This document shows, in pieces, positions 7,733-22,324 of a stretch of DNA of 64,000 bases. The position numbers and the translations under genes are program-made. Positions within the stretch are counted from its first letter, which is position 1. Every line of letters starts with the position of its first letter. This DNA comes from Aeromonas lacus (GTDB taxonomy: Bacteria; Pseudomonadota; Gammaproteobacteria; Enterobacterales; Aeromonadaceae), in assembly GCF_000764665.1 (NCBI RefSeq), contig NZ_JRGM01000147.1, forward strand, positions 62,001-126,000. The letters run 5' to 3'. The notes under the pieces were generated by a model that did no database searches, was not told the DNA's origin, and worked only from the letters and a program-made list of their open reading frames with translations.

Positions 7733-8467
7733 TTAACCCTGACCGGAAATCAGCCGGGCCCCTTGTCTGGCCTGCTCGTCCGCGGTCTTCATCAGTTTGA
7801 CCTGCAGCTCGAAGTTGCGGGTCAGCGACATGCTGCTGATCAGCTCGTCGACCGCATTCACGTTCGCCCCCTCCAGAAAACCGGAGGCCAGTACGACCTG
7901 CTCGCTGGTCTCGGCATCGCCACCCTGCCGCAGGCGGAAGAGGCCATCCTGCCCCTTGACCAGCTCGGCAGGATCCGGGTTGACCAGTTTGAGGCGCCCC
8001 ACGTCGAGACGGGCGCCACCGCCGGGCGGCGTGATGCTGAGCGAACCATCCTTGCCAAAACTGAGATCCCGATAGGCAGGAAGTACCATTTCCCCACCAT
8101 CGCCTAGTACAGGACGACCGTTGAGGGTCAACAGCCCGTCAGCATCGCTCTCCAGATTGCCGGCCCGGGTGTAGGCCTCTTTGCCATCTGCGGTCTGCAC
8201 CGTGATAAAGCCTTCACCGCGAATGGCCACGTCCAGCTTGCGCCCGGTCTGCATCAGCGCGCCCGGCTTGAAGTCGGTCCCGGCCATCTCTTCGCGAGCC
8301 ATGACCCGGCTGGGGTAACCATCACCGCTCAGGGCATAGGCCGACACCCGCTCGAAGTCAGCCCGAAAGCCGGCGGTGTTGACGTTGGCCAGGTTATTGG
8401 CCCGGATTTGCTGGGCCATCAGGGTATGTTGCGCCCCTGACATGGCGGTATAGATAAGCTTTTCCAC
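7733..8467 (-). CDS. lfgF: Lateral flagellar proximal rod protein FlgF
   Basis: 244 residues starting at a GTG (MEKLIYTAMSGAQHTLMAQQ). It has the axial motif IRANNLANVNTAGFRADFER and a C-terminal ELISSMSLTRNFELQVKLM helix. It is the proximal rod subunit exported by the lateral type III apparatus. It lies 10 bp after lfgE and 82 bp before the lfgG start; that spacer contains the lfgG ribosome-binding site and nothing else I can identify. Confidence 0.92.
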   Translation of the reverse strand: MEKLIYTAMSGAQHTLMAQQIRANNLANVNTAGFRADFERVSAYALSGDGYPSRVMAREEMAGTDFKPGALMQTGRKLDVAIRGEGFITVQTADGKEAYTRAGNLESDADGLLTLNGRPVLGDGGEMVLPAYRDLSFGKDGSLSITPPGGGARLDVGRLKLVNPDPAELVKGQDGLFRLRQGGDAETSEQVVLASGFLEGANVNAVDELISSMSLTRNFELQVKLMKTADEQARQGARLISGQG

Positions 8468-12435: not shown

Positions 12436-12875
12436 GCATAGAGCCGAAGCAGCGGATCAAGGAGCTGATCCTGGGCATCCAGCAAGATTGCAGCCGCTAC
12501 GCCGAGCTGCAGAGCCTGTTGCTGCGCCAACACGGCTTGCTGGCAGCGCACGATGTCGATGGGCTGGCGACCCACAACCAGCAACAGACAAGATTGATGG
12601 CCGATGTGCAAAAACAGGCGCAGCAACGTTGCCACCACCTGCTCGCACTGGGACTGAAACCGGATGAAAAGGGGATGGCGACCCTGATTGCCAAACTGCC
12701 GGCCACCATGAAACCCAAAGTTGCCAGCCAGTGGCAGCAGCTCGAACTGCTGTTGCAGCAGTGTCTGCGCCAGAACGATCTCAACGGCCGTCTGCTGGCT
12801 GGGCAGATAGAGACCATCAACACGCTGCTGGGCCAGGAGCATGCTTACGGCCAGCTGGAGCGTTTTCCCGACTAG
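12432..12875 (+). CDS. lfgN: FlgN, export chaperone for FlgK/FlgL (lateral system)
   Basis: 147 residues, predicted largely helical, rich in Gln and Leu. It matches FlgN in length, composition and position directly after flgM. It would escort the hook-associated proteins to the export apparatus. Its stop overlaps the end of the convergent lfiJ by 4 bp, so there is no room for a terminator between the two units. Confidence 0.82.
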   Translation: MSIEPKQRIKELILGIQQDCSRYAELQSLLLRQHGLLAAHDVDGLATHNQQQTRLMADVQKQAQQRCHHLLALGLKPDEKGMATLIAKLPATMKPKVASQWQQLELLLQQCLRQNDLNGRLLAGQIETINTLLGQEHAYGQLERFPD

Positions 12876-13291
12876 CTCCCCTCTTTGAGCTGACGGTGGC
12901 GCAAGCTGGAAAGCTCGTCGAGTTGGCGCTGATCCCGCAGCTCCCGCTGCTGGTTGATGGCTCGCTCACGTTTGTCCAGCAGGTGCTCCAGCCCCTTGAC
13001 CCGACCAAACTGCCTGACCACCTCCCCTTCATGGCGCTCCAGATCCAGCCTGGCCAGTGCCGATTGCTGAACCTGATGGGCCAGCAGATGACGCAGCTGG
13101 CGATCCATCTGCTGCTTGTTCTGCCACAGCAGGGGATGAAAAGTGGCCGAACCGGGACTCAACGAGCCGATCACCTCCTGCAACCGCAAGGCTCTCTGCT
13201 CTTCCCTTATCGCCTCTTCCCGCAAGCGCTGACGCTCCTTGCCGAGCACCTCCAGCGCCTCCTGCTGCAAGCCGAGATAGGATTTCAACAT
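12872..13291 (-). CDS. lfiJ: FliJ, flagellar export chaperone-escort/ATPase stalk (lateral system)
   Basis: 139 residues, almost entirely charged coiled coil (LEVLGKERQRLREEAIREEQ; ERHEGEVVRQFGRVKGLEHL), the expected fold for FliJ, which sits in the centre of the FliI hexamer. It is the last gene of the lafK-lfiEFGHIJ run, 12 bp after lfiI. Its end overlaps lfgN on the other strand. Confidence 0.85.
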   Translation of the reverse strand: MLKSYLGLQQEALEVLGKERQRLREEAIREEQRALRLQEVIGSLSPGSATFHPLLWQNKQQMDRQLRHLLAHQVQQSALARLDLERHEGEVVRQFGRVKGLEHLLDKRERAINQQRELRDQRQLDELSSLRHRQLKEGS

Positions 13292-13303
13292 GGCGACCTC
13301 TGA

Positions 13304-14632
13304 TTACCTGCCCAGAACCTGCTTGAGCCCTGCCACTACCTGAGCCAGCGGGGTCTCTTCATGGATCCCCTGCTGCAGGAAGGCGGCAATGGCCGGGTAA
13401 CGTTGTACCGCTTCGTCCATCTGGGGATCAGCCCCCGGTTGATAGCCACCGAGCGGCAGCAATTCGCGCACCTGTTGGTAGCGCCCCCACAACTGGCGCA
13501 ACGTTACCGCCAGCTGCTGCCAGTCGGTCGGCACCACTTGCGGCATCACCCGGCTCACCGAAGCACCGATGTCGATGGCCGGGTAGTGCCCCTCTTCCGC
13601 CAGACGACGGGTCAGCACTATATGACCATCCAGAATGGCACGGGCCGAGTCGACCACCGGGTCTTGCTGGTCATCCCCTTCCGCCAGCACGGTGTAAAAG
13701 GCACTCAGGCTGCCATCAGGGTGGGTACCATTGCCGGCCCGCTCTACCAGCTGGGTCAACATGCTGAACACCGATGGCGGGTAGCCGCGCGTTGCCGGTG
13801 GCTCGCCGATAGCCAGTGCGATTTCGCGCTGGGCCTGGGCGTAGCGGGTGAGGGAATCCATCAACAGCAGTACATCCTGCCCGCGCTCACGAAAATATTC
13901 GGCAAGACGATGGCAGAGCTGGGCGGCACGCAACCGCATCAGAGGGGATTGATCCGCAGGCGCAGCCACCACCACCGAGCGGGCCAGACCTTCCGCACCG
14001 AGACTGAGTTCGATGAACTCGCGAACCTCGCGACCCCGTTCACCAATCAGCCCCACGATGACGATCTGTGCCGTGGTGTTGCGGGTCATCATGCCGAGCA
14101 GCATGCTCTTGCCCACGCCTGAACCGGCGAACAGGCCCAGTCGCTGCCCCTTGCCAACCGTCAGCAAACCATTGATGGCGCGGATACCCACATCAAGAGG
14201 TTCACGGATCGGCGTGCGCAGCAGCGGATTGGGCGGAGAAGAAAAGAGCGCAACGCGCTCCCCCTCGTCACGAAGAGGACGGCCATCCAGCGGCTGCAAC
14301 AGACCATCGACAACCCGGCCCAGCAGATGCTCGCCGACCCTGATTGTCTCTTCGCCATCGATTGGCAGCACCCGGGCTCCGGCGTAAAGCCCTCCCATCG
14401 GCTGCAGCGGCATCAGATAGGAGATCTCCCGGTTGAAACCCACCACCTCCGCCAACAGAGATTCGCCGGATGCCGTATCGACCCGGCAGCGCTGCCCCAT
14501 CACCAGCTGGCAGCCGATTACCTCAAGGGTCAGCCCCGTTACGCGAACCAGACGGCCATAGCGGCGAAAACCGGGCACCTCGTCAAAACAGTCGAGCGCC
14601 GAGGTGAGCGCCTGTTGCAGGGCTTCATGCAT
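13304..14632 (-). CDS. lfiI: FliI, flagellum-specific export ATPase (lateral system)
   Basis: 442 residues with a Walker A motif GSGVGKS at 170-176, a Walker B DVLLLMDS near 253-260, and the downstream LTRYAQAQREIALAIGEPPA segment typical of FliI/F1-beta family members. It hydrolyses ATP at the cytoplasmic base of the lateral export gate, regulated by FliH. Its start overlaps the lfiH end by 8 bp. Confidence 0.95.
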   Translation of the reverse strand: MHEALQQALTSALDCFDEVPGFRRYGRLVRVTGLTLEVIGCQLVMGQRCRVDTASGESLLAEVVGFNREISYLMPLQPMGGLYAGARVLPIDGEETIRVGEHLLGRVVDGLLQPLDGRPLRDEGERVALFSSPPNPLLRTPIREPLDVGIRAINGLLTVGKGQRLGLFAGSGVGKSMLLGMMTRNTTAQIVIVGLIGERGREVREFIELSLGAEGLARSVVVAAPADQSPLMRLRAAQLCHRLAEYFRERGQDVLLLMDSLTRYAQAQREIALAIGEPPATRGYPPSVFSMLTQLVERAGNGTHPDGSLSAFYTVLAEGDDQQDPVVDSARAILDGHIVLTRRLAEEGHYPAIDIGASVSRVMPQVVPTDWQQLAVTLRQLWGRYQQVRELLPLGGYQPGADPQMDEAVQRYPAIAAFLQQGIHEETPLAQVVAGLKQVLGR

Positions 14633-15320
14633 GCTGCGGCAATTCCAGCGTGCTATTCAGCTGCTCGATGCAGGAGGCAAGGCGCTCGCCGGTATTGACC
14701 TCGATCACCGCAGCCCGTGTTTCGATGCGGGCATCGCCAATGGCCAGATTGGGGTCTACCTGCAGCGGCCACCCTTCGCAACGGGTGACCCCCTGTTCGG
14801 CCAGACGCTGGCGATCCCCCTCATTGAGATAGATGACCAGCTCTTCCGAAGCGGCTGGCAGAGTCGCCAGCGCCTGCTCCACCTGATTGAGCACCTGCTG
14901 GGGATTGAGGGTAAATTCGGCCTGGATAACCCGCTTGGCCACCTGGGCCACCAGCTGGGCAATCAGCGCTTTCTGCTCCTGCATCTTTACCCGGGTCAGG
15001 GATTCCCACTGCTCCTGCAGCTTGGCAAAGGGGACCATGGCCTGATCGAAAGAGGCACGCCCCTCCGCCAAACCCTGAGCAAAGCCGCGGGTTTGTCCCT
15101 GCTGCAGCCCCTTGGCTTCCCCTTCCACCAGACCGCTGGTCAGTCCCTGCTGATATCCGGATTGATACCCTTCGTCGTGACCTTGCTCCAGCCCCTGCTG
15201 ATAACCAAACTCGAACTGCTCCTGCTGACTCAGAGCCTCTTCCCCGCTCTGTCCCAAGGCAGGGAAGCGGTAGAGCCGGGTCGGGCCGGGCATCAACTTG
15301 CGCACATAGTGACTCATCAA
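14625..15320 (-). CDS. lfiH: FliH, negative regulator of FliI (lateral system)
   Basis: 231 residues. Residues about 35-85 form a run of GxxxG repeats (GYQQGLEQGHDEGYQSGYQQ and more), the hallmark of FliH. The C-terminal half corresponds to the FliI-binding/V-ATPase E-like domain. It tethers FliI to the C ring through FliN. It lies between lfiG and lfiI. Confidence 0.9.
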   Translation of the reverse strand: MMSHYVRKLMPGPTRLYRFPALGQSGEEALSQQEQFEFGYQQGLEQGHDEGYQSGYQQGLTSGLVEGEAKGLQQGQTRGFAQGLAEGRASFDQAMVPFAKLQEQWESLTRVKMQEQKALIAQLVAQVAKRVIQAEFTLNPQQVLNQVEQALATLPAASEELVIYLNEGDRQRLAEQGVTRCEGWPLQVDPNLAIGDARIETRAAVIEVNTGERLASCIEQLNSTLELPQHA

Positions 15321-15329
15321 TGCCCCCTG

Positions 15330-16358
15330 TTAGCTGACAGTCGGTTCTTCGAACAGCTGGAACTCGATCTCGCCCTGCTCCACCAATTCGCGGACCAGCT
15401 GCATGATCTCCTCTCGGGCCTGCTCGACCTTGCGCAGGGAGACGCTGCCCTGATGCTGGATCTGATCTTCCAGTGCCTGAGCCATCCGCTTCGGCATGGC
15501 ACCGAGCACCACCTTGCGGAAACTGGTCTCGGTATTCTTGAGGGCCAGAGCCAGCAGCTCGCTCGGGATCTCCTGCACCAGACGCTGCAGGGTTTCGTCG
15601 CTCTGGCGACGCAACGTCATAAAGTCGAACATGTTCTTCTCGATTTCCAGCGCCATGTCACCATCGTGTTCACGCAGCAGCGAGAGCATCTGCTCCTTGT
15701 CGCCCTGATAGCGGTTGAGGATATCGGCAACCTGCCGCACGCCATTCACCTTGGCTCCGGACTGGTCAGCAACATAGGCAAGACAACGATCCAGCGTCAG
15801 CCTGAGTTCACCCAGAACATGCTCGCTGACACTGCTGAGACTGGCGACCCGCACCAGCAGATCGTCGTGCACCGAACCGGGTAGCTCATCCAGTACCGCG
15901 GAAGCGGTCTGAGGTGGCAGGAACGCCAGCAGCACCGCCTGCATCTGCGGGTGTTCATTGCGGAAGAAGCGGGCCAGCACATCGGCAGGCACCCACTGCA
16001 ACCGCTGGATATCCTGACTCATCACATCACCGTAGAGGCTGTCGAGCAGGCTGCGGGAGAGACGCTGACCAAGGGCCAGGTCGAGAGTCTGTTCCAGATA
16101 TTCGCGGGAGGCGCTGCCGATCCCGCTCTGTTCACGATACTGGTTGAAGAACTGCTGCAAGGTCCATCGGGCTTCCATCGAACTGACGCCGGAGAGACCC
16201 GCCATCTTGGAGATAAGGCGCTGCACTTCATCGCGGGAGAGCTTTTGCATCACCTTGGCAGCAGCCTCGGTCCCCATGCTCAACAGCAGGATGGCCGCTT
16301 TTTCAAGGTTATCGATATCGATGTCGACGGCTTTCTGGTTCAGGTTAACGTTGTTCAT
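15330..16358 (-). CDS. lfiG: FliG, motor switch protein (lateral system)
   Basis: 342 residues from the ATG at 16358; a GTG two codons upstream is possible. Family blocks include KAAILLLSMGTEAAAKVMQK, FRNEHPQMQAVLLAFLPPQT and the torque helix region LREHDGDMALEIEKNMFDFM. It joins the MS ring to FliM/FliN and contacts the stator. It overlaps the lfiF end by 14 bp. Confidence 0.94.
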   Translation of the reverse strand: MNNVNLNQKAVDIDIDNLEKAAILLLSMGTEAAAKVMQKLSRDEVQRLISKMAGLSGVSSMEARWTLQQFFNQYREQSGIGSASREYLEQTLDLALGQRLSRSLLDSLYGDVMSQDIQRLQWVPADVLARFFRNEHPQMQAVLLAFLPPQTASAVLDELPGSVHDDLLVRVASLSSVSEHVLGELRLTLDRCLAYVADQSGAKVNGVRQVADILNRYQGDKEQMLSLLREHDGDMALEIEKNMFDFMTLRRQSDETLQRLVQEIPSELLALALKNTETSFRKVVLGAMPKRMAQALEDQIQHQGSVSLRKVEQAREEIMQLVRELVEQGEIEFQLFEEPTVS

Positions 16359-18105
16359 TGCCACTTACCCATGCTCTCACCACTTCCGCTACCCGAGCGG
16401 TATCTTTGTCAACCAGCAACTGCAGATGCTTGAGTTGTACTTCCAGCTCGGAACCCGGCTCCGGCAATGCCTCCAGATCCAGAGAAGAGAAGTGCGGCTC
16501 CCGCTCGTTGTCGGAACGGATCAGGCCATTGCTCATCGGCGGCGCCGTCAAGGCAACATCATCGTCCCGCCGCATGGAGAGACCCACGGTCGGCTCCTGT
16601 TCATCATCCAACTCGTCAGAGAGCGCCTCTTCATCCGGCGCCTGCTGGGTACGAACCAGATGCTTCACCAACGGGCGGATACCGAAGAAGACCAGCGTCA
16701 GACCAAGCAGACCACCCACCAGATAACGGAGCGAATCCTGCCAGTAAGGGGTCTCCCACCAGCTCGATTCGGGCGGAGCAATCGGCGCTGCGCCGGTGAA
16801 GTCAAACACTTGCAGGCTGATCTGATCTCCACGGCCTTCATCAAAGCCCACCGAACGCTCGACCATCTGCCGAATCTGCGCCAGCTGCTCATCATTCCAG
16901 CCACCTTTCGGGGCGCTCTGATGATTGAGCAGTATGGAGACGTTCATCTTCTCGAGCCGTCCCTGCTGATAGCGGGTGTGTACTATGGTGCGGCTGTTTT
17001 CGTACTGCTTGCTGACCTCCTGCCGCTCGGTGCGGGAGTCATTTTTCTGATTTTCCGTGGTGGTGGCCGCCGCAGTTTGATTCTGGGTCGCAGGATCACT
17101 TTTGGGCGCCGTTTCGGGAGGACGATTGGACAGAGCGCCGGGGATACCCAGTGCCAGCGCATCGATGGTTTTGTCCGATTTGCTCGACTCCTTGGTCACC
17201 ACCCCTTGTGGATCCAGCTGCTGCTGGGTCTCCTCCACCGCATTGAAGTTGACATCTGCGGCGATCTGCACCCGGAAGTTGCCGGTGCCCAGCATGGGAT
17301 AGAGCATGTCACTGGCACGCTGACGAATGTACTGCTCCAGCTTGCGCACATACTCCATCTGCTGCACGCTCTGCTTGCCAAAACCGGCCTTGTCGCCGAG
17401 TTCGGCACTCAGCAGCTGGCCAGCCTGATCGACAATGGTGACCGCCCCCGGTTTCATGCCAGAGATACTGCCTGCCACCAGGTTGGCAATGGCCTCGACC
17501 TGGCCGGGCTCCATGGCCTGACCGGGTTGCAGATCGAGCATGACGGATGCACTCGGTTTCTCCTCGTCACGACCGACAAAGAGGGTGCGTTTGGGAATGG
17601 CGAGATGGACGCGGGCACTGCGCACTGCATCCAGCGAAATGATGGTGCGCGCCAGTTCCCCTTCCAGCGCGTGGCGATAACGGGCCCCCTCCATAAACTC
17701 ACTGGTGCCGAGGCCGGTGACATTGTCCAACCCCTCCAGACCCGCCGGCATGGCCGCTCTCACCCCTCTGGCTGCCAAGGCCATACGAACATGAGCCAGC
17801 TGATTCTCCGGCACCAGGATCTGGCCAGAGCTCTTCTCCAGCCGGAACGGCACCTGCTCCTTCTCCAACATCTCCATGATGTTGGCGGTATCGTAGAGCT
17901 CCTGCTTGCCGTACAGGGGGACGTAGTTTTTGCTGGACGTCCACAGAATGACGACGATTGTGCCGGCAACGATGGCAGCCAGCAGGGCAATGGTCAGGAT
18001 CGACTTATTGTCACGGGAGAGGCTGCGCCAGTTGCGAAGGCCCTCCTGCACGCGTGTTCTGAAGGAATCCGAAGCCCCTTGCGGGGACGTTACCAGTTCA
18101 GTCAT
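16345..18105 (-). CDS. lfiF: FliF, MS-ring protein (lateral system)
   Basis: 586 residues from the ATG at 18105. Two membrane segments flank the periplasmic part: SILTIALLAAIVAGTIVVIL near 40-60 and YLVGGLLGLTLVFFGIRPLV near 465-485. Ring-building motifs include YDTANIMEMLEKEQVPFRLE and the SARVHLAIPKRTLF stretch. It assembles first and houses the export gate. The C-terminal tail binds FliG. Confidence 0.95.
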   Translation of the reverse strand: MTELVTSPQGASDSFRTRVQEGLRNWRSLSRDNKSILTIALLAAIVAGTIVVILWTSSKNYVPLYGKQELYDTANIMEMLEKEQVPFRLEKSSGQILVPENQLAHVRMALAARGVRAAMPAGLEGLDNVTGLGTSEFMEGARYRHALEGELARTIISLDAVRSARVHLAIPKRTLFVGRDEEKPSASVMLDLQPGQAMEPGQVEAIANLVAGSISGMKPGAVTIVDQAGQLLSAELGDKAGFGKQSVQQMEYVRKLEQYIRQRASDMLYPMLGTGNFRVQIAADVNFNAVEETQQQLDPQGVVTKESSKSDKTIDALALGIPGALSNRPPETAPKSDPATQNQTAAATTTENQKNDSRTERQEVSKQYENSRTIVHTRYQQGRLEKMNVSILLNHQSAPKGGWNDEQLAQIRQMVERSVGFDEGRGDQISLQVFDFTGAAPIAPPESSWWETPYWQDSLRYLVGGLLGLTLVFFGIRPLVKHLVRTQQAPDEEALSDELDDEQEPTVGLSMRRDDDVALTAPPMSNGLIRSDNEREPHFSSLDLEALPEPGSELEVQLKHLQLLVDKDTARVAEVVRAWVSGNEQR

Positions 18106-18113
18106 CACTTACC

Positions 18114-18440
18114 TCAGAGCGGCATGCGCATAATGTCGTCAAAACCGGTCATCAGCTTGTTGCGCACCTGCATCAGGGCTGAAAAGCTGAGACCCGCTTT
18201 CTGACTGGCCACCATGGCCCCGACCAGATCATCGCTCTGGCCGGCATCAACAGCCGTCATCATGGCTGAAGCCATGTTCTGCTGTTCGTTGACTCTGCCG
18301 ACAACGTCGCGCATGGCGTCGCTGAATGACACATTCGAGAGATCGTTGGATTCGATGGAAGGAGCCTGAGTGGCAACTCGTTGCATCTCCTGCATCTGCT
18401 GCAGAAGCGTTGCCTGTGATGACATCATTTCAATCTTCAC
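18114..18440 (-). CDS. lfiE: FliE, MS-ring to rod adaptor (lateral system)
   Basis: 108 residues from a GTG with AAGGGA upstream. The C-terminal half (MVASQKAGLSFSALMQVRNK then LMTGFDDIMRMPL) is the conserved FliE signature. It links the MS ring with the proximal rod. It lies 11 bp after lafK and so is probably co-transcribed with it. Confidence 0.92.
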   Translation of the reverse strand: MKIEMMSSQATLLQQMQEMQRVATQAPSIESNDLSNVSFSDAMRDVVGRVNEQQNMASAMMTAVDAGQSDDLVGAMVASQKAGLSFSALMQVRNKLMTGFDDIMRMPL

Positions 18441-18451
18441 GCCGTTATCCC

Positions 18452-19828
18452 TTAGTTTTGAAGCTGCTGCTCGATATCAATGCCCTGCTCACGCATCGCC
18501 GCCAGCTTGTATCTCAGAGCCCGGGTGGTCATCCCGAGCGCTTCTGCCGTGCGGGTACGATGGCCACGGAAGCGGCGCAAGGTCTCTAGTACAAATTGAA
18601 ATTCTGCGTGCCGACGCGTCTCGCTCAACCCTTCCGGGGCGGAAAGAACTTCCGCCAATCCATGTTCGGGTTCCGCGACATAGCTGGGCAGCATCAAATC
18701 GACCGCTTGAATATGCAATCCGCGAGCCATGATTAATGAACGTTGAATGACGTTATCCAGCTCCCTGACGTTGCCCGGCCACTGATAAGCCAGCAGTTGC
18801 TTGCGGGCACTCTCGCTCAGGCGATATCCCTGCTGAGGCGCATAGCGTTCGATGAAATATTCAGCCAACGGCAATATGTCATCAGGACGCTCGCGCAGTG
18901 CCGGCCAGTTCATCGGCAACACATCGAGGCGATAGAAGAGATCTTCCCTGAACTGGCCGGCAGCCACCAGATTACGCAGATCCTTGTTGCTGGCGGCGAT
19001 GATCCGCACATCCAGCGCGATGGTCTGATGGCTACCGAGGCGCTCCACCTCACGCTCCTGCAAAACTCGCAACAACTTCGCCTGCAGTGACAGGGGCAAC
19101 TCGGAGATTTCGTCGAGCATCAGGGTTCCGCCCTGCGCCTGCTCGAACTTGCCGGGCTGCGAACCCGTCGCACCGGTGAAGGCCCCCTTGTTGTGGCCAA
19201 ACAGAATGGATTCGAGCATGGACTCGGGAATGGCGGCGCAGTTGATGGCGACAAACGGCTTGTGAGCACGGCTGGACATCTCGTGGATGTAACGCGCCAA
19301 ACGCTCCTTGCCCGTTCCCGACTCACCACCGATAAGAATGGTGGCTGCCGTTTTGGCTGCCCGGCGAGCAAGCTGCAACACTTGCAGGCTCATGGTCGAG
19401 ACGGCGATCAGGTCTGGAATGGCCTGCCGCAGACGCAGTGCCCCCTTCACCACATCCAGCATCTGCTGCCCCCCGAAGGGCTTGATGATGTAGTCAATGG
19501 CACCGGCTCGCATCGCTTCTGCCGCAAGATAGGCCTGACGCTCATTAACCAGGATCACGCAATCAATGCCGCTAAAATCATGCACCAATTGAGGACCTGC
19601 TTCGGTCATGAGATCCATATCGAGCAGGATTAAATCAACGGAACGACTGCCGAGAATTAATCTCGACTTGCGAATAGAGTCACAGCGGGAAACAGCATAT
19701 CCCTGTGCAGCCAATATTCCTTCAATATCGTTCCCATCGACCATAGATGAGCTGATTAACAATAAATGGGGATCTTTCCCAAGACTGGCTGGTCTTGAGC
19801 TTTTTTTGATAGATACATCCGAAAGCAT
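18452..19828 (-). CDS. lafK: LafK, sigma-54-dependent activator of lateral flagellar genes
   Basis: 458 residues from the ATG at 19828; a TTG further upstream extends the frame but is unlikely. Domains: a receiver-like domain (about 20-130) with Asp70 (LLDMD) and Lys116 (IKPFG) but without the usual N-terminal acidic pair (LLLISSSMVDG); an AAA+ domain with Walker A GESGTGKE at 168-175, the sigma-54 contact loop GAFTGA at 215-220 and GGTLMLDE near 233-240; and a C-terminal Fis-type helix-turn-helix ending TRTAEALGMTTRALRYKLAA. It activates RNA polymerase-sigma-54 at lateral class II promoters. It heads a run with lfiEFGHIJ and is preceded by a cyclic-di-GMP riboswitch. Confidence 0.94.
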   Translation of the reverse strand: MLSDVSIKKSSRPASLGKDPHLLLISSSMVDGNDIEGILAAQGYAVSRCDSIRKSRLILGSRSVDLILLDMDLMTEAGPQLVHDFSGIDCVILVNERQAYLAAEAMRAGAIDYIIKPFGGQQMLDVVKGALRLRQAIPDLIAVSTMSLQVLQLARRAAKTAATILIGGESGTGKERLARYIHEMSSRAHKPFVAINCAAIPESMLESILFGHNKGAFTGATGSQPGKFEQAQGGTLMLDEISELPLSLQAKLLRVLQEREVERLGSHQTIALDVRIIAASNKDLRNLVAAGQFREDLFYRLDVLPMNWPALRERPDDILPLAEYFIERYAPQQGYRLSESARKQLLAYQWPGNVRELDNVIQRSLIMARGLHIQAVDLMLPSYVAEPEHGLAEVLSAPEGLSETRRHAEFQFVLETLRRFRGHRTRTAEALGMTTRALRYKLAAMREQGIDIEQQLQN

Positions 19829-19954
19829 ATGAACCCGAACCCGTGATTGTGGATAAAACAATCAACAGAACTGAAATGCCGAAATAAAAGACGCACAGGT
19901 ACGCAGGCACTTCTAACGAGCACCTGCATCAAACCAGTGTTATATCAAGGCGGT
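19829..19954 (-). promoter_or_regulatory. Probable expression platform between the riboswitch and lafK
   Basis: The 126 bases between the aptamer and the lafK start hold a hairpin at 19903-19927 (GCAGGTGCT pairing with AGTGCCTGC, two wobbles). An alternative pairing of CAGGT with the nearby ACCTG overlaps it. A U-rich run (TCTTTTATTT) follows. The overlapping stems suggest mutually exclusive structures, but I cannot say whether control is by termination or by translation. No strong Shine-Dalgarno site precedes the lafK ATG. Confidence 0.4.
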
Positions 19955-20055
19955 AACAATGGCCTTGGCAACCCCGCTATCATGAGCATTCCTGCTTTTA
20001 GACCGGAGGCTTTGCGTCCTGACTTTTCAGTTCAGTTTGCCTTTTTCATGCGACT
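19955..20055 (-). promoter_or_regulatory. Cyclic-di-GMP-I (GEMM) riboswitch aptamer upstream of lafK
   Basis: Read on the minus strand, the region contains in order AAGGCAAAC, a stem capped by a GAAA tetraloop (CTGAACTGAAAAGTCAG), GGACGCAAAGCCTCCGG-TCTAA, a short variable hairpin (GCAGGAATGC) and ATAGCGGGGTTGCC. These are the conserved blocks of the Vibrio Vc2 GEMM-I aptamer in the same order and spacing, including the GAAA tetraloop and its receptor. GGCAA (20037-20041) and TTGCC near 19967-19973 can close P1. A sigma-70 promoter is placed about 110 bases upstream. This identification rests on sequence recognition, not a covariance search. Confidence 0.9.
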
Positions 20056-20166
20056 GCCCGTATTTGGACAAGACAGCACCAAATTAGTGGTGACTGCTGA
20101 GTGACACATGCGAATTTTTATATTTTTTATTTATCTTTGACGACCAAATGTGTCAAAAACAGTCAC

Positions 20167-20194
20167 ATCATAACGGCTTACAATTACAATTCAA
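20167..20194 (-). promoter_or_regulatory. Sigma-70 promoter of the lafK leader
   Basis: Minus strand -35 TTGAAT (20189-20194) and -10 TATGAT (20167-20172) with a 16-base spacer. The start would fall near 20160, placing the riboswitch about 105 nt into the transcript. The region to the left is strongly AT-rich and contains TGTGACTG/GACACA half-sites that could bind a regulator. Confidence 0.55.
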
Positions 20195-20248: not shown

Positions 20249-22324
20249 TCAGCCTAGCGTACCAATAACCTCCACTCTCAACTCTTCCGGTATTTCATTA
20301 TATGAGAGCACTTTGAGACCTTTTGCAAAAGATCGGGCATAACGCGCTATCAAGGGTCTAAGTTGTGGCATCACGACCAGTACCGGGGCATATCCTTGCT
20401 GCTGCAGCTGCTCTTTAACCAGCGGCATATTTTGCTGCAGCTGTGCCAGCAGTTGCGGATCAACCGGAAAACTGTCCAGCTGGATTTTCCCCTGCTGCTG
20501 CGACTGGTTCATAGCCGCCAGCAGGGTCTGCTCAAGACGGTCATCGAGCGTGAAGGTGGCAAGCACATCACGGCTACCGATCGCCTGTCTCACAATCTGG
20601 CGCTTCAAGGCACAACGAACATCGGAAGCAAGCAGCACGGGATCCTTGGTCAGCTCGCTGGCATCGAGCAGGGTCGTCGCCACCGTGCGTATATCCGTCA
20701 GGCTGACCTGTTCCTTTAGCAATTGCCGAAAAACTCGCAACTGCTGCATCTGGGTCAGGGCCAGATTGAGCTCTTCCGCCAGACGGGGCGACTGGGCCGC
20801 AAGATGTTGCCCCAGCTTGCCCACCTCGTCATGGCCAAAGAGGGCATCGAGTTGCTCACGCAGCAGCTTGCTGGCATGGGTCGCAATCACCGTTGCCGAA
20901 TCCACCACCGAATAGCCAAGATTCAATGCCTTGGCCTTGTTTTCCGGTGAAATCCAGACTGCGCTCATGCCATATGCAGGATCCTGGGTCAGCTCGCCAT
21001 CCAGCGAGCCATAGGTCTCGCCGCTGCTGATGGCCATCAGACGCTGACAATCGACATTGCCGGACGCCAGTGCCACACCGGAGAGCTTGATCCGGTACTG
21101 ATCGGGCTGCAGCTGCAAATTGTCGCGAACCCGGATCTCGGGCAGCAGAAAACCGTACTGCTCCGATAGGGTTTTGCGAATACCGCGCACCCGGGCCAGC
21201 AGCTCGGCACCTTTGTCAGCTTCCGCCAGCGGGACCAACCGATAGCCCAGTTCGATGGCAACGGTATCGACCGGCGGCAGATCCTGCCACTCCAGCCCTT
21301 GTGGTTCCGGCTGGGCAATCTGGCGAGCCAGCTCCTGCGCGGCATCCAGATCCGGGGTATTGACCGCCCGTTTGCTCACGCTCCAGCCTGTCCAGGCCAG
21401 CACAGCGGCAAAGCTGAGGAAGGCCAGCATCGGCATGCCCGGCACCAGCCCCAGTACCAGCATGATGGCGGCGGCAGTGTAGATGACACGGGGAGAAGCC
21501 AGGATCTGGTCACCCACCTGATCCGCCATCTCACCTTCATCGCTGACCCGGGTCACAATGATGGCGGCAGCAGTAGACATCAGCAGCGAGGGGATCTGGG
21601 CAACCAAACCATCACCAATGGTCAGCAGGGCATAGCGCTGGAAGGCTTCGGCAACCGGCAAGGCGTGCTGGAAAATACCGATGGCAAGGCCGCCAACCAG
21701 GTTGATGATGAGTACCAGCATGCCGGCAATCGCATCACCGCGGACAAACTTGGAGGCACCATCCATCGCCCCGTAGAAATCGGCTTCACGGGCGATCTCG
21801 TCCCGTCTCGCCCGCGCCTGATGCTGATCCATGGTGCCGGCATTGAGGTCGGCATCGATGGCCATCTGCTTGCCCGGCATCGCATCCAGGGTAAAGCGGG
21901 CAGACACCTCGGAGATCCGCTCCCCACCCTTGGTGATAACCACAAAGTTGATGATCATCAGGATCACGAAGACCACCAGACCCACGACATAGTTGCCGCC
22001 GATCACCACCTCGCCAAACGCCTGAATCACCTTGCCCGCCGCTTCATGACCCTCATGACCATGCAGCAGCACCACGCGGGTCGAGGCCACGTTGAGCGAC
22101 AGCCGCATCAGGGTTGCCACCAGCAACACCGTAGGGAAGACGGAGAAGTCGAGAGGGCGACGCGCCGATACGGAGACCAGCAGCACCAGTACCGCCAACA
22201 CAATGTTGAAGGTAAAGAGGGCATCCAGCAGCCAGCCCGGCAGAGGCAATATCATCATGGCCAGAATGGCCAGCAGCATCATCGGGATCGCGGTATAGGA
22301 TTGGGTCAATACACGCCAGTTCAC
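20249..22324 (-). CDS. lfhA: FlhA, export gate protein (lateral system)
   Basis: 691 residues from a GTG preceded by GAGAGG. The N-terminal half has about eight membrane segments, and the cytoplasmic loop carries the FHIPEP-family motif (RDEIAREADFYGAMDGASKF). The C-terminal half is the soluble domain that docks chaperone-substrate complexes. It is the last gene of the lfiMNPQR-lfhBA run. I see no terminator after it, so some transcripts may continue into the lafK leader. Confidence 0.95.
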   Translation of the reverse strand: MNWRVLTQSYTAIPMMLLAILAMMILPLPGWLLDALFTFNIVLAVLVLLVSVSARRPLDFSVFPTVLLVATLMRLSLNVASTRVVLLHGHEGHEAAGKVIQAFGEVVIGGNYVVGLVVFVILMIINFVVITKGGERISEVSARFTLDAMPGKQMAIDADLNAGTMDQHQARARRDEIAREADFYGAMDGASKFVRGDAIAGMLVLIINLVGGLAIGIFQHALPVAEAFQRYALLTIGDGLVAQIPSLLMSTAAAIIVTRVSDEGEMADQVGDQILASPRVIYTAAAIMLVLGLVPGMPMLAFLSFAAVLAWTGWSVSKRAVNTPDLDAAQELARQIAQPEPQGLEWQDLPPVDTVAIELGYRLVPLAEADKGAELLARVRGIRKTLSEQYGFLLPEIRVRDNLQLQPDQYRIKLSGVALASGNVDCQRLMAISSGETYGSLDGELTQDPAYGMSAVWISPENKAKALNLGYSVVDSATVIATHASKLLREQLDALFGHDEVGKLGQHLAAQSPRLAEELNLALTQMQQLRVFRQLLKEQVSLTDIRTVATTLLDASELTKDPVLLASDVRCALKRQIVRQAIGSRDVLATFTLDDRLEQTLLAAMNQSQQQGKIQLDSFPVDPQLLAQLQQNMPLVKEQLQQQGYAPVLVVMPQLRPLIARYARSFAKGLKVLSYNEIPEELRVEVIGTLG

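Follow-up and report, generated by a model that had tools for sequence, protein, structure and literature searches.

A conserved c-di-GMP-I riboswitch in the lafK leader is a candidate direct brake on lateral flagella in Aeromonas

By sequence comparison, the leader of lafK, the gene for the sigma-54-dependent activator of lateral flagella, contains a genuine and conserved member of the known c-di-GMP-I (GEMM-I) riboswitch class. We infer that c-di-GMP binds this element, acts directly on the mRNA of the activator and turns it off, a reading to which we assign a probability of about 0.75. Through it, the c-di-GMP signal would probably shut swarming off at the RNA of the activator itself.

Results

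The lafK leader carries a c-di-GMP-I aptamer

In the window (the whole stretch of 64,000 nucleotides of Aeromonas lacus DNA analysed here), lafK precedes the lateral fliE-fliF-fliG-fliH-fliI-fliJ run, and the same-strand genes flhA, flhB, fliR, fliQ, fliP, fliN and fliM lie 5' of its leader (Table 1). The initial annotation had called lafK the activator of the lateral flagellar hierarchy and the head of this run, and both the Pfam domains and the gene order agree. The gene sits within the second flagellar cluster, separate from the polar-type paralogue, and its product's next best homologue in the window's genome is 48% identical. The likely start codon is an ATG (position 19828), and there is also a TTG in the same frame at 19861.

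Table 1. Features of the lafK locus in the window (coordinates of the window; minus, reverse strand)
Feature	Position	Strand	Basis or remark
Lateral fliE-fliF-fliG-fliH-fliI-fliJ run, 3' of lafK	12872..18440	minus	Pfam
lafK, sigma-54-dependent activator of lateral flagella	18452..19828	minus	Pfam Response_reg, Sigma54_activat, HTH_8
Conserved hairpin CUGU(U)GAUUG...CAAUCAC(A/G)G, just 5' of the translation start	19841..19868	minus	alignment and fold
Candidate anti-aptamer strand, core UUUCAGUUCuGUU (19876-19864), complementary to aptamer AACuGAACUGAAA (20037-20025)	19864..19899	minus	
Candidate intrinsic terminator: long hairpin (19939-19894) and U-rich tract (19890-19882)	19882..19939	minus	looser scan
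Conserved hairpin AAGGC...GCCTT, directly 3' of the aptamer	19947..19966	minus	fold of 13-leader alignment
c-di-GMP-I (GEMM-I) riboswitch aptamer	20051-19964	minus	RF01051 covariance-model match
5' leader hairpin between promoter and aptamer	20077..20092	minus	sequence differs among relatives
Sigma-70-like promoter TTGAAT-16-TATGAT	20194-20167	minus	promoter scan, 9/12 matches
Lateral flhA (lfhA), 5' of the leader	20249..22324	minus	Pfam FHIPEP

All of the GEMM-I blocks that had been claimed for the leader are present and in the claimed order: GGCAAAC, the GAAA loop, GACGCAAAGCCTCCGG and AGCGGGGTTGCC. The covariance-model search proposed as a check gives a strong match to Rfam RF01051, at 82.9 bits against a cut-off of 35 (E 8.1e-15), which spans the full model (1-87 of 87) and has no pair marked as non-standard. 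At curated cut-offs, Rfam yields one other match in the window, the RNase P RNA (27115-26729). The window's genome as a whole has five RF01051 matches, and the one in the lafK leader scores best. The other four (L202, L203, L204 and L003) lie on the same strand as, and just 5' of, three GH18 chitinase genes and gbpA.

To read the ligand-contact positions we used G20, A47 and C92 in Vc2 numbering. On this numbering the window aptamer has G, A and C, and in 41 aligned leader aptamers these bases occur in 40, 41 and 41 sequences, respectively. The odd one out is the motY-lafK leader aptamer of a relative, G309 (L092:1743-1832, reverse strand), with an A where the other 40 have the G of position 20.

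The same 41 aptamers, from lafK and motY-lafK leaders (38 distinct sequences, with the decayed copy in G027 described below excluded), served to examine the helices. On this alignment, the Rfam structure has 96.8% of its cells paired and two-sided changes at 12 of its 22 pairs. The covariation score is 0.416, compared to 0.182 for shuffled alignments and 0.023-0.097 when the pairing partners are slid. The aptamer helices are thus maintained by strong covariation in the homologues.

Aptamer and promoter are kept in nearly all Aeromonas lafK leaders

We scanned each of 37 Aeromonas genomes for RF01051 and for LafK. Orthologues of LafK were taken as matches with 65-100% identity and at least 489 bits; the best of the next group has 381 bits, and its members are 47-50% identical across some 415 residues. 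Twenty of the genomes have an orthologue, and the 19 besides that of the window's genome are 65-99% identical to it. An RF01051 match above the cut-off lies on the same strand just 5' of lafK in 19 of these 20, with the contact positions kept, so that the conservation check proposed by the initial annotation is passed. No motY gene is found at the Aeromonas lafK locus, where the riboswitch adjoins lafK.

The twentieth genome, G027, has an open lafK frame preceded by a decayed copy of the aptamer (L084:2831-2921), which scores 28.3 bits with the Rfam model and 44.3 bits with our own. It has unpaired positions in P2, and a U occupies the presumed C92 contact. Across the whole of G027, no RF01051 match reaches E 0.001. 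We searched for decayed copies, with default filters, at 16 loci that have LafK without an above-cut-off riboswitch, and G027 was the only one recovered. A candidate at L117 was rejected, as its 9.3 bits (E 3.4) are at the level of chance.

A sigma-70 promoter had been claimed upstream of the aptamer, and TTGAAT-16-TATGAT is indeed found there, one of two such sites that the promoter scan reports on both strands (1.1 expected). The pattern TTGnnn-16-TATnAT recurs in 19 of the 20 Aeromonas leaders, 146-164 nt ahead of GGCA(A/G)AC; G029 is without it. Aptamer and promoter pattern are kept even though the surrounding leader sequence diverges. Most Aeromonas lafK leaders also share a block, TTTTGAC(A/G)CA, just 3' of the promoter (20158-20149 of the window, reverse strand). 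Its role may be that of an operator or of an additional -35 box.

The leader between aptamer and start codon holds a candidate switch

The 135 nt between aptamer and ATG contain, in order, the AAGGC...GCCTT hairpin, the long hairpin with its U-tract, UUUCAGUUCuGUU and the hairpin at the start codon. Across the 13 leaders aligned, the first of these hairpins has a single one-sided change and zero covariation, and the hairpin at the start codon likewise has one-sided changes only. The initial annotation had described competing hairpins plus a U-rich run downstream. Hairpin and run both exist, with modest support for their working as a switch.

A simple terminator scan of the window did not report the hairpin at the U-tract. 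In a looser scan its stability is -21.5 kcal/mol, a value that 1 of 25 shuffles equals. Of 19 Aeromonas leaders (G027 excluded), 11 have the U-tract at the 3' end of the scan's best hairpin, and in 6 of these 11 at most 1 of 25 shuffles is as good; in G024, G005 and G011 the hairpin does not exceed chance (25 shuffles each). Outside Aeromonas, a hairpin-plus-U site matched by at most 1 of 25 shuffles follows only 5 of 22 aptamers. In the consensus fold of the 13 Aeromonas leaders (of 20) that have the U-tract, the tract itself pairs with an upstream strand, and three of these pairs show two-sided changes. We therefore reject the idea that these leaders generally work through a conserved intrinsic terminator, with which both the scan counts and the consensus fold disagree.

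In its minimum-energy fold, the window leader has UUUCAGUUCuGUU paired to the 5' half of the aptamer's P2 helix, in a structure just 1.6 standard deviations better than that of shuffled sequences. The duplex between aptamer and tail of this leader lies 2.1 standard deviations beyond shuffled tails, 8 of 300 of which are as good. For 14 of the 16 closest leaders the excess is 1.3-3.3 standard deviations; it is 2.2 in G011, 1.0 in G010, 0.9 in G009, 0.6 in G027 and 0.3 in G013, and G029 does worse than its shuffles. A strand complementary to P2 hints at co-transcriptional control, with modest statistical support.

Transcripts were also grown in silico, with the aptamer fold forced and fixed seeds, for 19 Aeromonas leaders (G027 excluded) and for the leaders of the four chitin-gene riboswitches that the window's genome also has. 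The gain from the alternative fold, a difference that by construction is zero or favours that fold, stays within 4.2 kcal/mol in 17 of the 19 leaders when 20, 50 or 80 nt past the aptamer have been made; G011 and G029 exceed this value. At 110 nt it amounts to 4.5-11.6 kcal/mol in all 19, and at 140 nt it shrinks to 2.5-10.2. For the chitin-gene riboswitches the gain is 0.6-5.2 at 110 nt, and two of them reach 6.9 and 10.1 at 80 nt. When compared with shuffled tails at 115 nt, 16 of the 19 leaders, which are related to one another, lie beyond the mean, and at most 5 of 100 shuffles do as well in 6 of them (1 of 100 for the window). G007, G010 and G029 show no excess over shuffled tails. None of the chitin-gene leaders stands out, though one is a little past its shuffle mean (36 of 100). 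In these models the growth pattern is compatible with, but does not prove, kinetic switching of the sort that PMC9262584 considers for Cd1 and Vc2.

Because the anti-aptamer core is transcribed after the U-tract, termination at that tract is outside its control. The one segment that could decide it is UGCGUC, which comes earlier and can pair with GACGCA of the aptamer. Models of 16 of the 20 Aeromonas leaders address the ribosome site instead. Accessibility from -20 to -13 drops in the bound model in 9 of the 16, including the window (0.19 to 0.02), and does not in the other 7. With a drop in only 9 of 16, sequestration of the ribosome site is unproven as a general rule.

Outside Aeromonas, motY usually lies between aptamer and lafK

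LafK is present in 12 of 38 genomes of other Aeromonadaceae (at least 394 bits, 58-65% identity), and in 8 of these 12 an aptamer lies 5' of lafK. The arrangement in 7 of the 8 is aptamer-motY-lafK, as identified by tblastn, with MotY_N and OmpA domains in all seven. G063 has two tandem c-di-GMP-I aptamers straight ahead of lafK (L081:7664-7755 and 7893-7985) and no motY match; 3' of the second is a strong hairpin-plus-U site that none of 25 shuffles equals. In G041 the locus is split, so that aptamer and motY start end one contig and the end of motY and lafK are on another. G037, G071 and G074 have LafK without an aptamer ahead of the gene.

A sample of 394 genomes from the order adds 24 with LafK outside the family, at E 1e-118 or better. 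Eleven of these, from other families, have the aptamer about 0.9-1.1 kb 5' of lafK, and a MotY gene intervenes in each. The aptamer is found in 4 of 4 genomes of family f16, 3 of 3 of f7, 3 of 4 of f2 plus the split case G172, 1 of 8 of f6 and 0 of 5 of f22. In G172, split between contigs, aptamer and motY share one contig. Overall, 38 of 56 LafK genomes have the aptamer, with G041 and G172 counted apart.

Two wider searches were made. A search of genome contigs with the LafK alignment returned at least 80 loci, 35-58% identical and spread over many phyla. A search of a plasmid collection returned two short matches. At the match in Aeromonas caviae, on a 4.9-Mb record titled plasmid, lafK, motY, lfhA and fliE are absent within about 3 kb.

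The initial annotation saw only the Aeromonas leader, and the aptamer-motY-lafK order in other families is an addition to it. The simplest reading of these gene orders is that aptamer-motY-lafK was ancestral and that motY was later lost by Aeromonas and by G063. We consider it slightly better than an even bet that this arrangement was the order's ancestral direct c-di-GMP brake, which would have been kept in Aeromonas and several families, is missing in most of the sampled f6 genomes and in each of the five from f22, became tandem in G063 and was possibly retuned to another cyclic dinucleotide in G309.

Discussion

How might the leader work as an off switch? The course of events proposed here is the least certain part of our reading. 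While the first 80 nt or so past the aptamer are being transcribed, the aptamer would be free to fold and to bind c-di-GMP. If the aptamer stays empty, UUUCAGUUCuGUU, which is made about 90-110 nt after it, would invade P2 and give the expressed form. In an occupied aptamer this invasion would be blocked and the leader would end in the off form, with termination at the U-tract, closing of the ribosome-site hairpin, or both as the output. At high c-di-GMP, LafK production would then stop, and most of the lateral-flagella hierarchy would go off with it.

The fold alone does not fix the sign, and known class I switches act in either direction according to the accessible text of PMC6366702. Two sets of published observations bear on the question, and they uphold what had been assumed about swarming and about lafK. 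GGDEF overexpression inhibits swarming in Aeromonas and EAL overexpression promotes it (PMC5247445, in the part available). In the A. hydrophila lafK mutant three lateral-flagella promoters collapse, from 247 to 22 Miller units for PfliM, 970 to 20 for PflgB and 976 to 22 for PlafA (PMC5013049, also in part). Together, the swarming effects and the loss of promoter activity make OFF the likelier sign. For the proposed one-step control of about 38 genes, 38 is an upper bound. The same source gives A. hydrophila AH-3 38 lateral-flagella genes in nine putative operons, and the authors' scheme, as far as it is accessible, counts only classes II and III as LafK-activated.

The main competitor is the same riboswitch with the opposite sign, whereby c-di-GMP raises lafK, for instance in surface-attached cells whose motors are stopped by other receptors. 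Class I elements have opposite signs even within V. cholerae (PMC6366702, available portion), the anti-aptamer fold might just as well represent the off state, and the modelled accessibility of the ribosome site gives no clear sign. Against this, GGDEF overexpression inhibits swarming in Aeromonas (PMC5247445, in part), and c-di-GMP would normally switch off an activator of swarming. We therefore regard an ON switch as unlikely, at odds of perhaps one in six. It is a good deal less probable that the aptamer is a relic, or that it binds its ligand without regulating lafK. Such a state has parallels in the decayed aptamer ahead of the open lafK frame of G027 (28.3 bits) and in some C. difficile class I riboswitches that are non-functional (PMC6366702, in part). 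The conservation of aptamer and promoter pattern, each in 19 of 20 leaders with diverging surroundings, and the strong covariation of the helices argue otherwise, and read-through from lfhA (420 nt upstream, same strand) would also carry the aptamer.

A different cyclic dinucleotide as the ligand, such as 3',3'-cGAMP, is the least probable reading, and we give it very little weight. GEMM-Ib (cGAMP) RNAs carry an A at position 20; there the window aptamer has G, as do 39 of its 40 companions in the alignment of leader aptamers, and only G309 has A. As a G20A GEMM-I RNA binds 3',3'-cGAMP (PMC6274999, accessible part), that one leader may sense another cyclic dinucleotide. For the window leader, an OFF switch that responds to c-di-GMP is the reading we prefer. 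With the sensor in the activator's own RNA, the messenger's route to the lateral hierarchy is testable with one leader fusion. The five c-di-GMP-I riboswitches of this one genome would join two programmes, lafK on one side and three GH18 chitinase genes and gbpA on the other.

Annotation pipelines that use Rfam may, we presume, already mark the site in the lafK leader. The riboswitch class is known; for lafK as its target, or for a riboswitch at motY-lafK, we found no description in full-text searches of a literature collection with few subscription journals. The A. hydrophila c-di-GMP riboswitches, of the same genus and class, precede fimbrial and chitinase genes, and lafK is not named among the targets in the accessible text of PMC6366702. 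A. hydrophila ATCC 7966 is without the lateral-flagella cluster (PMC2556355, Table 3, available in part); the lafK riboswitch was thus beyond the reach of any survey of that genome. The same paper, in its accessible part, gives A. salmonicida 11 riboswitches, which it does not name, and a lateral cluster; the lafK site may be among them. The protein effectors of which the available part of PMC5247445 names homologues are VpsR/FleQ, VpsT/CsgAB and FleN, and it ties none of them to lateral-flagella genes.

Known systems resemble the lafK leader in different respects. V. cholerae, a gammaproteobacterium, has the same aptamer class at gbpA (Vc1) and tfoX (Vc2), and the window's genome also has a gbpA riboswitch. 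Neither Vc1 nor Vc2 uses termination (PMC6366702, in part), and their targets, unlike lafK, are not flagellar activators. The nearer parallel is C. difficile Cd1 (Cdi-1-3), likewise a GEMM-I element in the leader of a flagellar unit, the flgB operon, that includes a regulator, sigD; there c-di-GMP turns expression off by termination, through a co-transcriptional kinetic decision (PMC6366702 and PMC9262584, accessible parts). Cd1 acts on an early flagellar operon, whereas the lafK leader precedes the gene for a sigma-54 activator that serves a second, lateral flagellar system in a gammaproteobacterium; for this leader we predict the same OFF sign.
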